Shown here: in pieces, positions 1 through 5,374 of the stretch | Layout: each line of letters opens with the position of its first letter | Numbering within the stretch: the stretch's first letter is position 1 | DNA from: Euryarchaeota archaeon Ods04 | Lineage (GTDB): Archaea; Halobacteriota; Halobacteria; Halobacteriales; Halorutilaceae | Reading direction: 5' to 3' | DNA: 5,374 nt | NCBI GenBank assembly: GCA_028751055.1 | Contig: JAQZDD010000095.1 | Coordinates: 1 to 5,374 of the forward strand | Position numbers and translations under genes: made by a program | Notes under the pieces: model-generated | The model's input: only the letters and a program-made list of their open reading frames with translations | Database searches by the model: none | Told to the model about the DNA's origin: nothing

Positions 1-488
1 GAACCGAAGTTGCCGACGTGATACGCGGTATCTCGGAGCACGACGCGATAGCCGATGTCGACATACTCTGGACCGACGAACAGGACGCGCTCGTCCAGTT
101 CCGGACACGCAGACCTATGATGCTCTTGGCGGCGCGCAGGTCGAACGTTCCCGTTCGTATGCCGTTCGAGATACGTGACGGCGTCGGCGAATGGAACCTA
201 ACGGCACCGCGTGACAGGCTGTCCGAACTGAGCGAGGTCTTCGACAGTATGGGTGTGAGCTACGAGGTCAAGAGCGTCCACAAGATAAGGTCGGACAGCT
301 TCCTCACCGAAAAACAGCGCGAGGTCATAGAGACTGCTCTGGAGATGGGATACTACGACACGCCGCGGAAGGCGTCGCTGTCCGATGTAGCCGAAGAGTG
401 CGGGATAGCCAAGTCTACGTGTAGCGAAACTCTGCACCGTGCCGAGGAACGCATAATCAAGGACTCGGTCGGCTCGGAGAGCGTATAA
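1..488 (+). CDS. HTH-10 (Bat-type) transcriptional regulator, 5'-truncated by window edge
   Basis: This is a DNA-binding regulator of the haloarchaeal HTH-10 family. The reading frame is open from base 3, so the N-terminus lies outside the window. A GTG at 18 is an internal in-frame codon, not a convincing start. By alignment to the complete paralogue at 4499-5125, about 45 residues are missing. The visible part is the end of an N-terminal sensor-like domain (with PFEIRDGVGEWNLTAPRDRL) followed by the HTH at about bases 303-459. The HTH begins LTEKQREVIE, continues GYYDTPRKASLSDVAEE, and has the recognition-helix segment AKSTCSETLHRAEE. The family usually controls nearby metabolic or respiratory genes. 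No PAS, GAF or Cys-cluster sensor is visible; the only Cys residues are in the HTH. It ends in TAA and converges on the cupin gene with a 21-bp gap. The family call is secure; the effector and targets are unknown. Confidence 0.9.
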   Translation, partial: TEVADVIRGISEHDAIADVDILWTDEQDALVQFRTRRPMMLLAARRSNVPVRMPFEIRDGVGEWNLTAPRDRLSELSEVFDSMGVSYEVKSVHKIRSDSFLTEKQREVIETALEMGYYDTPRKASLSDVAEECGIAKSTCSETLHRAEERIIKDSVGSESV

Positions 489-1336: not shown

Positions 1337-1361
1337 ACGAACTATGTTAAGTATGAACCAT

Positions 1362-1511
1362 ATGACGGAGTCAGACACGGAGACAGAGATACCGTGGATA
1401 CAGCGACTGTACGACAGGATATGGCTAATCGGTCTAGCCGCGCTCGTGTTCTTCTTCCTGTCGTACGTCCTGTGGGGAATAATAGACATCTTGATGATAC
1501 CGGAGGGGTAG
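1362..1511 (+). CDS. 49-aa single-helix membrane peptide, subunit IIa-like
   Basis: A short acidic N-terminus (MTESDTETEIPW), the basic-containing stretch QRLYDRI, and one hydrophobic helix (about residues 21-44, WLIGLAALVFFFLSYVLWGI and onward), ending IDILMIPEG before TAG. The length, single helix and position directly before the CuA subunit gene match the small accessory subunit (IIa, CbaD-type) of ba3-like heme-copper oxidases, which packs beside subunit I and supplies the helix missing from subunit II. In-frame ATGs at 1344 and 1353 would add 6 or 3 residues; ATG 1362 is preferred because it fits the TATA spacing. It ends two bases before the next ATG, and its 3' end carries the next gene's ribosome-binding site, so the genes are co-transcribed. 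There is no diagnostic motif; the role rests on size and context. Confidence 0.75.
   Translation: MTESDTETEIPWIQRLYDRIWLIGLAALVFFFLSYVLWGIIDILMIPEG
1502..1508 (+). promoter_or_regulatory. ribosome-binding site of the CuA subunit gene
   Basis: GGAGGGG lies 5 bp before ATG 1514 and inside the last codons of the preceding gene. It decides the start: a GTG at 1394 in the same frame would overlap the whole membrane helix of the upstream gene and has no such site. Confidence 0.7.
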
Positions 1512-1513
1512 AG

Positions 1514-2068
1514 ATGGGTTCACCCATAAAACCGCCCGACGAAGAAGACTGGTGGAACGTGCCGGTCGACAGACGCGAGTCGATATGGCTCAGCCTCAGT
1601 GCCATCTGGGCTGTCATAATCTTCGGATGGATGAGCATCTGGACACGTATAGGCGACCAGAACCCGATAGGCGAAACCTACCGTGTTAGCACCGACGAGT
1701 TTCAGAAGAAGGTCAGTGGCTACATGGATGAGGCGGAGAGGCTCGACGGGGCTATCGTGCCACCCGGCGACGACGTGTATATAGCCGGAGTGACGTTCCA
1801 GTGGCGTGGTCTGCCTGTCGTCCTTGAGACGGGCAGGACGTACAAGTTTCACATGAGTTCTTACGACGTACAGCACGGCATATCGATACGTCCCGAGGAG
1901 GTGCTGAGCCAGCACACGAACCTCCTCGTCATACCCGGATACGAATGGGTGATAGAGATGGAGTTCGACGAACCCGGGACATACCACGTCATCTGCAACG
2001 AGTTCTGCGGCGTCGGACACAGCAGCATGCACGGACGTATCGAGGTACGTGAGGAGGTCGACGTATGA
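1514..2068 (+). CDS. heme-copper oxidoreductase subunit II with CuA site
   Basis: The electron-entry subunit of a ba3-like heme-copper enzyme (184 aa). It receives electrons from a soluble or membrane donor, probably a halocyanin or cytochrome in haloarchaea, and passes them through the binuclear CuA centre to the low-spin heme of subunit I. One N-terminal helix (about residues 24-44, including SLSAIWAVIIFGWMSIW) anchors an external cupredoxin domain. All CuA ligands are present: His121 in YDVQHGISI, Cys161 and Cys165 with the backbone ligand Glu163 in CNEFC, His169 and Met172 in GHSSM. The single helix and short length match the ba3/CbaB type rather than the two-helix A-type subunit II. Its stop overlaps the next start as ATGA, indicating translational coupling. 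CuA is also found in some nitric oxide reductases, so this subunit alone does not define the substrate. Confidence 0.95.
   Translation: MGSPIKPPDEEDWWNVPVDRRESIWLSLSAIWAVIIFGWMSIWTRIGDQNPIGETYRVSTDEFQKKVSGYMDEAERLDGAIVPPGDDVYIAGVTFQWRGLPVVLETGRTYKFHMSSYDVQHGISIRPEEVLSQHTNLLVIPGYEWVIEMEFDEPGTYHVICNEFCGVGHSSMHGRIEVREEVDV
2053..2058 (+). promoter_or_regulatory. ribosome-binding site of subunit I gene
   Basis: GGAGGT lies 6 bp before ATG 2065, within the end of the CuA subunit gene. Together with the ATGA stop/start overlap it fixes the start of subunit I. Confidence 0.7.
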
Positions 2069-3780
2069 TATTCGGGCTGTTCGACAACGACTACGACGAC
2101 GAAGGCTTCCGTACGTGCAGCGTGACCGGCATGGAGATACACCGCACGGTTGAGAACCACGTCAAGGTCTTCGGTCTCACGGCTGTCGTCGCTCTCTTGG
2201 TCGGCGGCTTCTTCGCAATAACGGTTGCACTCACACGCTGGGAACTCGTCGGTCTACTGGAAGCCGACGCCTTCTACATACATCTCAGCCTGCACGCTTG
2301 GAACCTCCTGATATTCTGGATGGTCTTCATGGAGATAGCGATTCTGTACGTCGGAGGACCGATGGTGCTCGGACGCAGACTACCTATAACCAAGGCGGCG
2401 AAGGCGGGATGGGGAACGATGGTCACGGGCGCGCTCGTCATCAACTACGCAATCTGGACGACGACACCGCCTGACCAAGCACCCCTTCTGACTTCTTACG
2501 CGCCTATGCCATCGTCACCCTACTTCTACGCTGGCGCGATAATCTTCTTAGTCGGTGCCGTCGTCGCCGCTCTACCGTTCTTCGTCGCTCTCTGGCAGGA
2601 GAAGAAATGGGGTAGCGGCGGAAGCCTGCCGCTCGTGACGTTCGGGGCTTTTGCGACGGCGATAATCGCTGTCGAGGCACTCGTCGGCGGTCTCGTCGTC
2701 TTCGTCTACGCCTTCCTCTGGCGTATAGAGGTGATAGGCTCCATAGACGCCGCGCTCTACAGACAGATATTCTGGATAGTCGGACACGGCACACAGCAGA
2801 TAAACTTAGTGGCGATGGTCACGGTCTGGTACTTCCTGACACACGTCGTCGGCGGCGCGGAGGTCGTAAGCGAGAAGGTGTCGCGCACCGCGTTCGTCCT
2901 CTACGTCTTCTTCATCAACATGGGTGCGGCGCACCATCTACTGTCCGACCCTGTCGTCTCGACGGGCTGGCGTATCTGGAACGCGTCGTACGCGTTCTAC
3001 GGCGCGACGCTCGCAAGCATGATACACGCCTTCGCCATACCCGCCGGAATCGAGGCAGGACGACGTAAACGTGGAAAGGGCGGCGGACTGTTCGGCTGGC
3101 TCACGGGCGCGCCGTGGAAGAACCCCGTCTTCTCCGCGACCATCTTCTCCATCATCCTGTTCGGCTTCGTCGGTGGCATCACGGGTGTCGTCATGGGTCA
3201 GTTACAGACCAACATGACGTGGGTGCGTACGATGGCGACCGTCGGGCATTTCCACGGTACGGTCGTCCTCGGCACGACGATAGCGTTCATGGGACTCGTC
3301 TACTTCGTCATAAGGACGATGTTCATGCGTGACCTCGCTCTCGGCAGGTTAGCGTCGGCACAGCCGTTCCTTTACGCCGGAACGATGACGCTCGCCACAC
3401 TGATGCTGATGTACATGGGTCTCCTGTACAGCGTCCCGCGCAGGATACACACCGTCGTCCGTGACATACCCGGGAGTGACTTCAGCCTTTCCGCCGCTGA
3501 ACCGCTGATGCTGCTCTTCGGCATCTTCGCGCTCCTTGCAATCGTCTCGGGCGCGCTCTTCCTTGTCGTCGCGCTCGTGTCGCTGCTTATCGGCGACAGG
3601 AAGACGCCGGGTGCCGACCTCGTACCCGACGGCGGCGTCGACTTCGAGAGCGATGAACCCGTACACAAGTTCGAGATGCGCGGGACGTTCGTGATTACGT
3701 TGATATTCTTGGGTGTCTTTATAGTCGCCTACATCGCCAACTGGTATCTGCTGTCACAGCTCTGGAACATAGGACCATAG
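2065..3780 (+). CDS. heme-copper oxidoreductase subunit I lacking the active-site Tyr; NO reductase-like (CuA-type) candidate
   Basis: The catalytic membrane subunit (571 aa, about 13 predicted helices, as in ba3-type subunit I). Ligands seen: His78 in LSLHAWN for the low-spin heme, His241 in VGHGTQQ for CuB, His290-His291 in GAAHHLLSDP for CuB, and His395 (active-site heme) and His397 (low-spin heme) in VGHFHGTVV. In oxygen reductases the helix VI motif is HPxVY, with Tyr four residues after His cross-linked to it. Here the motif is H-G-T-Q-Q and Gln245 occupies the Tyr position; the Pro is also lost. The cNOR/qNOR motif (HxxVEGxWE) is absent too. The known alternative is a divergent NO reductase with a CuA subunit, the eNOR-like group. 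Glu90 and Glu204 lie within predicted helices and could serve proton delivery. The N-terminus (residues 1-34) is acidic and cytoplasmic with CSVTGMEIHR. Pumping and substrate are not determinable from sequence. Confidence 0.93.
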   Translation: MIFGLFDNDYDDEGFRTCSVTGMEIHRTVENHVKVFGLTAVVALLVGGFFAITVALTRWELVGLLEADAFYIHLSLHAWNLLIFWMVFMEIAILYVGGPMVLGRRLPITKAAKAGWGTMVTGALVINYAIWTTTPPDQAPLLTSYAPMPSSPYFYAGAIIFLVGAVVAALPFFVALWQEKKWGSGGSLPLVTFGAFATAIIAVEALVGGLVVFVYAFLWRIEVIGSIDAALYRQIFWIVGHGTQQINLVAMVTVWYFLTHVVGGAEVVSEKVSRTAFVLYVFFINMGAAHHLLSDPVVSTGWRIWNASYAFYGATLASMIHAFAIPAGIEAGRRKRGKGGGLFGWLTGAPWKNPVFSATIFSIILFGFVGGITGVVMGQLQTNMTWVRTMATVGHFHGTVVLGTTIAFMGLVYFVIRTMFMRDLALGRLASAQPFLYAGTMTLATLMLMYMGLLYSVPRRIHTVVRDIPGSDFSLSAAEPLMLLFGIFALLAIVSGALFLVVALVSLLIGDRKTPGADLVPDGGVDFESDEPVHKFEMRGTFVITLIFLGVFIVAYIANWYLLSQLWNIGP

Positions 3781-3786
3781 CCCGAG

Positions 3787-4452
3787 ATGCTCGACAAGAT
3801 TTCGAAGACAGCGCGCCGTGCTTGGCGGGACATGCTGAGTATCTACTACGCCAACACGCCGATATGGAAGCTCCTCAAGAGCGGCGCGCTCGTCATGCTC
3901 GGCTTGTTCTGCTGGGCTGGCGGAAACCTTTTCCTGTCGTACCATCCCGAAGCAACGTGGCTCAACTACCTCGTGGCGTACGGCGCGCTTCTGGTGTTCT
4001 ACGGTCCCTTCACGCATCTCGTCGTGGTGCCGCTCGCAATACGTTGGAGACGCCGCGACAAGGATATGCTTAACAAGCTTTCTAAGAGGATGTCGAAAAT
4101 CAACATCACGTTCTTCATCATACTCGTTATCGTGGTCGGAACCTATCCGCCCTCGGTCATGATGCTTGAGTTCGACGTCGCCAACGAAGGCGTCGACGTG
4201 GACCCCGACCTCGACTGCGTCGACCACAGCGAGGTCGTCGAATGCGAACTCTCCGACGACACGGGTATCGCACAGGTCGTCGTCACGTCGGGAGAGCGCG
4301 AACTCGTCGTACTTGACGAACCGCCTTACGAGTTCGAGATACAGAAGGACGATATGGTCGAGTCAGTCGGACAGAAACGTTTCGTCGTGGAGCTACGTGA
4401 CGAGGACGGCGGTATGCTGAGAAGGTACAGCCGGTCGGTACCGGCTAACTGA
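3787..4452 (+). CDS. three-helix membrane protein with exported Ig-like domain; putative accessory subunit
   Basis: Not a family I recognise by name (221 aa). Hydrophobic segments lie at about residues 33-50, 60-85 and 106-128. The basic loop RWRRRDKDMLNKLSKRMSK between helices 2 and 3 and the basic N-terminus place those parts inside by the positive-inside rule, so the C-terminal 90 residues are outside. That domain has the pattern of bacterial Ig-like folds: DDTGIAQVVVTSG, then EPPYEFEI, then GQKRFVVELRDEDGG and a final beta strand. Cys144 and Cys153 could form an external disulfide. The ATG follows the subunit I stop by 6 bp with no strong Shine-Dalgarno, so it is probably translated by coupling within the same operon. 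It may be a structural subunit or assembly factor of the enzyme, possibly docking an electron donor. The function is inferred from position only. Confidence 0.85.
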   Translation: MLDKISKTARRAWRDMLSIYYANTPIWKLLKSGALVMLGLFCWAGGNLFLSYHPEATWLNYLVAYGALLVFYGPFTHLVVVPLAIRWRRRDKDMLNKLSKRMSKINITFFIILVIVVGTYPPSVMMLEFDVANEGVDVDPDLDCVDHSEVVECELSDDTGIAQVVVTSGERELVVLDEPPYEFEIQKDDMVESVGQKRFVVELRDEDGGMLRRYSRSVPAN

Positions 4453-4498: not shown

Positions 4499-5125
4499 AT
4501 GACAACTGCCGAGATACGGATAAAGCTACCTGAAGGGGGCTGGATGCACGAAACATCGACGGAGTTCCCCGATGCCGTCTTCCGTGTCCTCTCGGTTCTG
4601 TCCGACGAAGACAGGGGTGTGGGAACGCTCGAAGTAGAGTCGGACGACATCGACTCTGTTCTGAAAGAACTCGTCGGCGATGACTCGGACGTGAGCTTCG
4701 AACCTCTGTACGCGGACGAAAGGAGGGCTGTCGTGCAGTTCGAGACGCCGACGCCCGGAATACATCTCGTGGCTACGGAGTCGGGGGTGCCGCCCGAAAC
4801 GCCTTTCGAGATACGTGACGGCGTCGTACGTATGCGTATGACCGCACCCCGTTCACGTATATCCGACTTCGTCGGGAGGCTCGAAGAGATGGGTATCGGC
4901 TCCTCGGTGAGCTACATGAGAAGCGTAGACGTGGACGACATACTGACTGAGAAACAACGCGTGCTCGTTGAGAAGGCTGTCGAGATGGGCTACTACGACA
5001 CTCCGCGCAGGTGCTCGCTCACAGAACTCGCCGACGAGGTGGGTGTGGCAAAGTCGACGTGTAGCGACACGCTACACCGCGCGGAGGAAAACATCATGAA
5101 CGAGTTCATGGGTGCGGGCGAATGA
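4499..5125 (+). CDS. HTH-10 (Bat-type) transcriptional regulator, complete, paralogue of the gene at 1-488
   Basis: A complete 208-aa regulator. Residues 1-about 145 form a sensor-like domain starting MTTAEIRIKLPEGGW and containing TPFEIRDGVVRMRMTAPRSR. Residues about 148-203 form the HTH-10 domain: LTEKQRVLVEKAVEMGYYDT, then SLTELADEVGVAKSTCSDT with LHRAEE. The N-terminal half has no Cys, so the multi-Cys oxygen-sensing motif described for NarO is absent; the only Cys residues are 172 and 188 in the HTH. No PAS or GAF domain is recognised. It is clearly related to the regulator at the left end of the window, sharing an exact 22-bp DNA match (165-186 and 4805-4826). It lies 46 bp downstream of the operon on the same strand and is a natural candidate to control it. 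It converges with glycerol kinase, with 7 bp between the stops. The ligand is unknown. Confidence 0.93.
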   Translation: MTTAEIRIKLPEGGWMHETSTEFPDAVFRVLSVLSDEDRGVGTLEVESDDIDSVLKELVGDDSDVSFEPLYADERRAVVQFETPTPGIHLVATESGVPPETPFEIRDGVVRMRMTAPRSRISDFVGRLEEMGIGSSVSYMRSVDVDDILTEKQRVLVEKAVEMGYYDTPRRCSLTELADEVGVAKSTCSDTLHRAEENIMNEFMGAGE

Positions 5126-5132
5126 ACCGTGC

Positions 5133-5374
5133 TTACTCCCAGCCGCGTGCCCTCTCGACAGCCTTCTTCCACCGCCCGTAGTCCGCCTCGACCTTGTGCT
5201 CGTGCTCCTCCGAACCGAAGACACGGTCGACCTTTCTGTTTTCGCGGAGTTCTTCGAGCGTCTCCCAGTAGCCGACCGTCAGCCCTGCTGCGTAAGCCGC
5301 GCCGAGTGCGGTCGTCTCGTCGACGACGGGACGGTCGATGTCGACGCCTACGATGCCCGCCTGTAGCTCGCATA
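5133..5374 (-). CDS. glpK: glycerol kinase, C-terminal 80 residues (5' end beyond window)
   Basis: Phosphorylates glycerol with ATP to sn-glycerol 3-phosphate, in the cytoplasm. Glycerol is a major carbon source for haloarchaea in brines with Dunaliella. The fragment shows the end of the second FGGY-kinase domain: LQAGIVGVDIDRP, then the hallmark ETTALGAAYAAGLTVGYW, then the closing GRWKKAVERARGWE before TAA. The alignment to glycerol kinase is continuous through to the end, so the C-terminus is intact; the family is about 500 residues, so most of the gene lies beyond base 5374. The frame is offset by two bases at the window edge. It converges on the regulator and appears unrelated to the respiratory operon. 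A related FGGY kinase is unlikely, given the glycerol-kinase-like C-terminal signature. Confidence 0.92.
   Translation of the reverse strand, partial: CELQAGIVGVDIDRPVVDETTALGAAYAAGLTVGYWETLEELRENRKVDRVFGSEEHEHKVEADYGRWKKAVERARGWE

Follow-up and report, generated by a model that had tools for sequence, protein, structure and literature searches.

A CuA-containing enzyme of the eNOR family in a haloarchaeon of the family Halorutilaceae, likely a nitric oxide reductase, and its near-constant membrane protein partner

Contig JAQZDD010000095.1 from the assembly of Euryarchaeota archaeon Ods04 (GCA_028751055.1; Halobacteria, Halorutilaceae) was analyzed over a stretch of 5,374 nucleotides, referred to hereafter as the window. 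The genes at positions 1344-3780 encode a heme-copper enzyme of the eNOR family, equipped with CuA, that very probably reduces two molecules of nitric oxide (NO) to nitrous oxide (N2O). Membership in the eNOR family is firm, and reduction of NO is, to judge by sequence and genomic context, the likely activity. The family is defined by glutamine (Gln) in the position of the oxidases' tyrosine (Tyr) and by a cupredoxin subunit II encoded immediately upstream of subunit I (PMC8756737). Both features are present in the window, the protein falls within an eNOR clade with 100/100 support, and eNOR is associated with NirK, the nitrite reductase that forms NO, across genomes, all of which agrees with the initial annotation, a best guess of a CuA-containing, eNOR-like NO reductase in a halophile. 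Since eNOR genes have already been reported throughout other Halobacteria (PMC8756737), the window enzyme adds a member to the family and does not represent a new enzyme class. The family is related to the B family of oxidases and is one of four biochemically characterised types of NO reductase (PMC11388526).

The core of the locus comprises the following features (aa, amino acids):
1344..1511, + strand: 55-aa protein with one helix, encoded immediately before subunit II; probable small subunit
1514..2068, + strand: subunit II, CuA cupredoxin, 184 aa (PF00116, 23.0 bits, cut-off 22)
1994..2029, + strand: CuA-ligand loop CNEFCGVGHSSM, part of subunit II
2065..3780, + strand: eNOR subunit I, heme-copper catalytic subunit, 571 aa (PF00115, 156 bits)
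2785..2805, + strand: active-site motif H241-G-T-Q244-Q245-I-N247 of subunit I (HMMER and multiple alignment; translation)
3787..4452, + strand: ORF3, unnamed membrane protein, 221 aa, near-obligate partner of haloarchaeal eNOR

The open reading frame (ORF) of subunit I is intact, and its product has COX1 as the sole Pfam match and reaches just 35.3 bits with the cytochrome oxidase model of NCBIfam (cut-off 670.75). Translation places the metal and heme histidines at H77, H241, H290, H291, H395, and H397; five of these had been located correctly at the outset, and the sixth, given then as 78, is really H77. The early reading of helix VI as HGTQQ, with Gln in the oxidases' Tyr position, stands: Q245 aligns with this Tyr both in the HMMER alignment to the Thermus ba3 oxidase and in the multiple alignment, in a column that holds Tyr in 11 of 11 B-family and 7 of 7 A-family references; that is, the Tyr four residues past the helix VI His, a B-family trait, is replaced by Gln245. 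With the Tyr absent, normal O2 cleavage at this site is unlikely. The cNOR/qNOR signature HxxVExxxE, also recognized early as missing, is absent from subunit I and present in all 11 cNOR/qNOR references. By the residue in the Tyr position (Table A4 of PMC8756737), the protein does not match bNOR/CuANOR, sNOR (Asn), or gNOR (Asp), the residue here being Gln.

Conservation was assessed across 165 sequences, namely, the window's own, 120 database proteins, and 44 genome loci, the last two sets overlapping. E90, Q244, Q245, I246, N247, Y256, S318, and H321 are identical in all 165, Y280 is present in at least 98%, and H290 is replaced by Gln in one sequence. Q244, Q245, and N247 are also identical in four distant plasmid sequences, where residue 90 is likewise Glu; such identity indicates that the Gln is no chance event or sequencing slip but a trait of the family. 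Among the active-site or proton-path candidates named initially, Gln244, Gln245, and Glu90 thus proved invariant, and Glu204 did not: residue 204 is Glu in 130 of the 165 sequences, Gln in 34, and Met in one, and is not Glu in the four distant ones, so it is no key residue. Glu90, located 13 residues beyond the heme ligand H77, probably contributes to a proton route or to structure, outside the active site. The predicted structure of subunit I has a mean pLDDT of 82.9. Two Thermus thermophilus plasmids (L094, 4983-6668; L096, 4022-5704) encode eNOR-like subunits with GHFK replacing GHFH, the Lys taking the place of the latter His in the helix X pair (H397 in the window, a low-spin heme ligand).

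The cupredoxin subunit is encoded directly upstream of subunit I, its stop overlapping the start of the latter. The loop CNEFCGVGHSSM and the upstream His align with the CuA site of Thermus subunit II, confirming the intact CuA subunit proposed previously; an alignment of 49 subunit II sequences shows no variation in the CuA-loop residues (two Cys, His, and Met) or in the upstream His121, and Glu22 is conserved in 48. The gene for the 55-aa one-helix protein had been overlooked at a 60-aa ORF cut-off. Matches to the protein occur in 43 of the 44 genome loci; the remaining contig starts some 230 bases ahead of subunit I. The four distant plasmid loci have weak matches as well (E up to 0.003).

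Of 8,000 proteins scored, 5,184 passed as homologues; the 120 listed are 64-91% identical to the window protein, and those that carry a name are annotated as cytochrome c oxidase or as a terminal oxidase of the cox type, as had been expected of automatic annotation. By sequence, ba3 oxidases are the nearest relatives with a solved structure. The 44 loci found in genome contigs come from haloarchaea and from contigs labelled Rhodothermus, Salinivenus, Bacteroidota, and uncultured bacterium. The biochemically studied eNOR is said to have come from Rhodothermus marinus, and work on the family reportedly includes Hemp and Gennis (2008) and Murali et al. (2024). On one contig, JAJCYR010000091.1, a distance of about 114 kb separates two eNOR loci of equal score.

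The phylogenetic tree (52 proteins, L-INS-i alignment, 538 columns, IQ-TREE) combined A, B, cNOR, and qNOR references with 17 of the 44 genome loci; of the 12 plasmid records with 38-41% identity, 4 were included. The eNOR rows were labelled by motif and similarity, with no biochemically studied eNOR among them by name. Alignment A1 comprises 58 rows. The eNOR proteins form a clade of 23 (support 100/100) that lies outside all 11 B-family references, which is how the phylogeny suggested as a check by the initial annotation came out. The B (11 proteins, 100/99), A (100/99), qNOR (100/97), and cNOR (99/98) clades were recovered as well, with eNOR as the sister to the 11 B-family oxidases (95/82) and cNOR plus qNOR apart (100/100). 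Within the eNOR clade, the window protein pairs with that of Ods01 (100/96), followed by Halorutilus salinus (100/100). The program warned of long branches meeting, including where A plus B joins eNOR, so that the branching order of A, B, and eNOR is less certain than the clades themselves.

Further evidence on the function of the enzyme comes from the distribution of NirK across 391 genomes that a single draw from the class yielded (the window's own, 64% complete genome included), of which 72 carry eNOR, 213 NirK, 204 qNOR, and 262 ba3. NirK is present in 67 of the 72 eNOR genomes vs 146 of the 319 others (odds ratio 15.9); for qNOR, the respective counts are 154 of 204 and 59 of 187 (odds ratio 6.7). 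Such an association is what an NO reductase predicts and thus supports the assignment. In the qNOR-less genomes, NirK accompanies eNOR in 25 of 27 cases vs 34 of the 160 genomes without eNOR, and in the best-sampled genus (44 genomes among the listings), in 6 of 6 vs 7 of 38 (p = 2.4e-4). The place of nirK was listed for 36 eNOR genomes; in 11 of them, its distance to eNOR is 3.7-10.2 kb. For the ba3 control, 0 of 10 genes are within 20 kb of nirK, the closest being at 21.9 kb and five residing on other contigs. Among the flanks of 48 loci, 21 contain a NirK-like ORF (four of these matches are weak or cut) and 29 a related P-type ATPase. All six NirK proteins tested (L025, L028, L034, L102, L103, and L106, the last three drawing on larger flank fetches) pass the TIGR02376 cut-off; the Thermus plasmid protein, with 155 bits against a cut-off of 296, is NirK-like only. 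An Rrf2 regulator and a DUF542 protein adjoin the Thermus eNOR copies, and in Ardenticatena maritima, eNOR is in an operon with NirK (PMC4653789). We found no description of a haloarchaeal NirK-eNOR linkage in the open-licence literature, a set that does not include the PNAS eNOR paper. In the Bacteroidota-labelled contigs L025, L026, and L028, NirK is divergent, just upstream of eNOR.

Several observations weigh against the NO reductase assignment. The Fisher tests ignore shared ancestry, and the ba3 control is also associated with nirK, albeit more weakly (165 of 262 vs 48 of 129, odds ratio 2.9), so part of the eNOR-NirK association reflects the general respiratory repertoire. Five of the 72 eNOR genomes (the window's own, G252, G268, G298, and G364) have no nirK, three of the five being at least 91% complete; nirK was not found in the host assembly, which is 64% complete. 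Also, qNOR accompanies eNOR in 45 of the 72 genomes (the other 27 have no detected qNOR), and nirK is not within 20 kb of eNOR at the listed place in 25 of the 36 genomes. No activity is reported for any haloarchaeal eNOR in the literature searched, and Tyr280 of helix VII might still reach the active site.

A comparison of alignment columns (23 eNOR, 11 B-family, and 7 A-family rows; residue depth estimated by residue count) points to a rearranged proton path. Y256 and E330 are shared with all 11 B-family references, and S318 with 8 of these. Column 252 is Tyr in 11 of 11 B-family proteins and Val or Ile in eNOR; column 280, Phe in 11 of 11 B-family proteins and Tyr in 23 of 23 eNOR; and column 321, Thr in 11 of 11 B-family proteins, Lys in 3 of 7 A-family proteins, and His in 23 of 23 eNOR. 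With these residues taken as those of the K-path, the eNOR K-type path looks exchanged rather than lost: the helix VI Tyr lost at 252 would be matched by the new helix VII Tyr280, and the Thr by His321. Residues of the B-family path being kept or exchanged in this manner, protons would come from the cytoplasm through a changed K-type path that retains Y256 and S318, with Glu22 of subunit II conserved. Energy coupling by eNOR is plausible at the level of sequence comparison.

These residues bear on the most serious alternative, namely, that the enzyme merely detoxifies NO produced by NirK or by neighbors, with no gain of proton-motive force. We regard this as unlikely on balance, yet worth real weight: H. 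salinus and Ods01 have neither narG nor nosZ above the curated cut-off, which makes for a short path, and PMC12569097 regards genomes that have only nor as likely to be detoxifiers. However, the candidate cytoplasmic proton-path residues are invariant, which pure detoxification does not need, and one proton channel is predicted for eNOR (Table A4 in PMC8756737).

It is far less probable that the enzyme is a B-family oxygen reductase that, having lost the Tyr, still mainly reduces O2, perhaps via helix VII Tyr280. Such a role would fit the ba3 oxidases being the closest solved relatives, the database names of its homologues, and the exchange of Phe for Tyr at position 280; the clade, however, is separate from all B-family references, and the host owns a second COX1 protein, a Tyr-bearing (HMVVY) ba3-type one (L001, 1462-3177) with a subunit II-like ORF directly upstream, in addition to which there are the association and linkage with NirK. 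A Tyr supplied from another helix had been raised initially as a potential objection to the NO reductase reading. In the C family, the Tyr place is six residues ahead of the HH pair, which by this count is I284 in subunit I, that is, not a Tyr. The objection does not hold for this place, but it may still apply to Tyr280, a residue specific to eNOR and located one helical turn further on in helix VII. The least credible option is that this heme-copper reductase acts on some other small molecule and turns over NO as a side reaction, an option left some room by the lack of any assay of a haloarchaeal enzyme of the eNOR clade in the literature searched, but at odds with NirK adjoining eNOR in haloarchaea and Bacteroidota-labelled contigs, with the below-cut-off NirK-like protein on Thermus plasmids, and with the Rrf2 regulator and DUF542 next to the Thermus copies.

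If the enzyme is indeed an NO reductase, CuA would receive electrons from halocyanin (a blue-copper protein) and hand them on, via the low-spin heme, to the heme/CuB site for the reduction of NO (the six His serving heme b, heme b3, and CuB), with NirK, clustered with eNOR in the relatives, as the putative source of NO. ORF3 would be a structural or assembly subunit, its outer domain beside the CuA domain.

ORF3, the freshest point of this analysis, shows a near-perfect partnership with eNOR. A profile of 39 rows (alignment A2, 38 of the 41 ORF3-bearing loci plus the window) matches 74 of the 391 genomes, including 71 of the 72 with eNOR; the sole eNOR genome without ORF3 is G052, whose eNOR match ends at residue 525. 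The three matching genomes without eNOR contain fragments only, spanning 88-130 profile positions (G054:C2:672534-672878, G292:C1:2742450-2742848, and G345:C1:456404-456679), which are possibly remnants of lost eNOR operons. Among the 78 matches, 75 are on the same strand as subunit I and downstream of it (median gap 89 bases, largest 1,585), and each of the four genomes with two eNOR copies (G220, G323, G381, and G396) has two ORF3. The 109 database matches, the window's own included, are hypothetical or uncharacterized where named, apart from two odd names, aldo-keto reductase and efflux pump; ORF3 has no Pfam match above the curated cut-off (6 members tested), no NCBIfam match, and no PDB sequence match at E 10, and no description of it was found in the same open-licence literature. 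The predicted structure (pLDDT 90.7, pTM 0.62) starts with one helix, followed by three more long helices and a beta sandwich (141-219), an Ig-like C-terminal domain; C144 and C153 are invariant in the 39 rows. By the positive-inside rule, the sandwich would face outside, on the side of the CuA domain.

Put together, haloarchaeal and Rhodothermus-type eNOR might be a four-subunit machine, with the Ig-like domain of ORF3 (two invariant Cys) docked on the CuA domain and protons delivered by a re-plumbed K-path (helix VI Tyr to helix VII Tyr; A-family Lys or B-family Thr to His), and, with NirK, might form a compact module converting nitrite to N2O, in which case Halorutilus and other haloarchaea would be N2O producers that have gone unrecognised; we offer this composite as a tentative proposal that is a little more apt to fail in some part than to hold in full.

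Two relatives in the host's genus (G001, taken as Ods01, and G002, taken as H. salinus F3-133) and one in its family (G003, taken as Ods02) all have eNOR and NirK, and none of the three has a qNOR match. NosZ is above the cut-off in G003 only, and NarG in none of these or the host. H. salinus reduces nitrate and nitrite, and nirK but not norBC was found in it (PMC10134839); eNOR would fill this gap and is likely, from its genome, the missing NO reductase of H. salinus. This organism being cultured and having no qNOR match, eNOR function is directly testable there. In the locus of Ods01 (L103), NirK, a blue-copper protein, an SCO protein, a Cu-ATPase, and eNOR lie within about 12 kb, the genes ahead of eNOR being NirK (ORF 3140-4435), blue-copper, SCO, Cu-ATPase, TIGR04053 radical-SAM, and HTH_10. 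The left end of the window falls inside the HTH_10 gene, which in L103 comes after the nirK side of the cluster, so the nirK part of the host would be expected just beyond that end. The taxonomy used puts Ods01 (published as class Ca. Ordosarchaeia) and H. salinus in one genus, and the eNOR tree agrees; the Ca. Ordosarchaeia and Halorutilus proposals may name one lineage.

The TIGR04053 radical-SAM/SPASM protein, related to the heme b synthase AhbD and to NirJ2, is found in eNOR/NirK neighborhoods of some haloarchaea and Thermus plasmids (L102, 12598-13617; L103, 8658-9713; L104, 10323-11438; L105, 2-1120; L094, 635-1762); the host assembly has two weak matches, both below the cut-off. A heme or peptide modification may be tied to the eNOR/NirK pathway.

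The published eNOR systems share with the window enzyme the Gln for Tyr, the CuA subunit II encoded upstream, and the occurrence in Halobacteria (PMC8756737); ORF3 and a Halorutilus-type host are not mentioned in the available parts of PMC8756737, PMC11388526, and PMC4653789. The T. thermophilus ba3 oxidase of the B family differs in its active-site Tyr, its K-path residues, and its clade. The Natronomonas pharaonis protein P0077 is 68% identical to subunit I and reads HGSQQ. It is probably the product of coxA3/coxB3, which are listed under terminal oxidases, the purified ba3 being tied to the cba genes (NP_2966A) (PMC8305020). Because databases name eNOR genes cytochrome c oxidase, surveys can miss likely producers of N2O, a greenhouse gas, in salt lakes and salterns. 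qNOR, which is not known to have a CuA subunit, shares with eNOR the predicted substrate and product and the co-occurrence with nirK, and differs in the Glu signature HxxVEGxFE and in belonging to a distant clade. The view of qNOR (NorZ) as the sole NO reductase class of haloarchaea, put forward in a 2021 survey (PMC8400030), contrasts with the 72 eNOR genomes, 27 of them without detected qNOR. ORF3 is a concrete unknown that can be tested alongside eNOR.

The gene cluster is flanked by two regulators:
3..488, + strand: upstream HTH_10 regulator, truncated at its 5' end by the edge of the window (PF04967, 77.2 bits)
4499..5125, + strand: HTH_10 regulator downstream (PF04967, 70.7 bits), with a homologue in the same place in L003

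The upstream regulator has a homologue at 9794-10420 of L103, and the downstream one would be the candidate to control the cluster. Just 5' of the eNOR genes (1016-1285), a stand-alone 89-aa protein matching the glutamyl-tRNA reductase dimerisation domain (PF00745, 28.1 bits) is encoded, with a weak homologue in a similar place in H. salinus. A small cupin-like protein is encoded at 510-818 on the minus strand, and its homologue (Cupin_2) adjoins NirK in H. salinus (L102, 18669-18956). At the right end of the window (5133-5372, minus strand), the product resembles, by eye, the C-terminal end of glycerol kinase.

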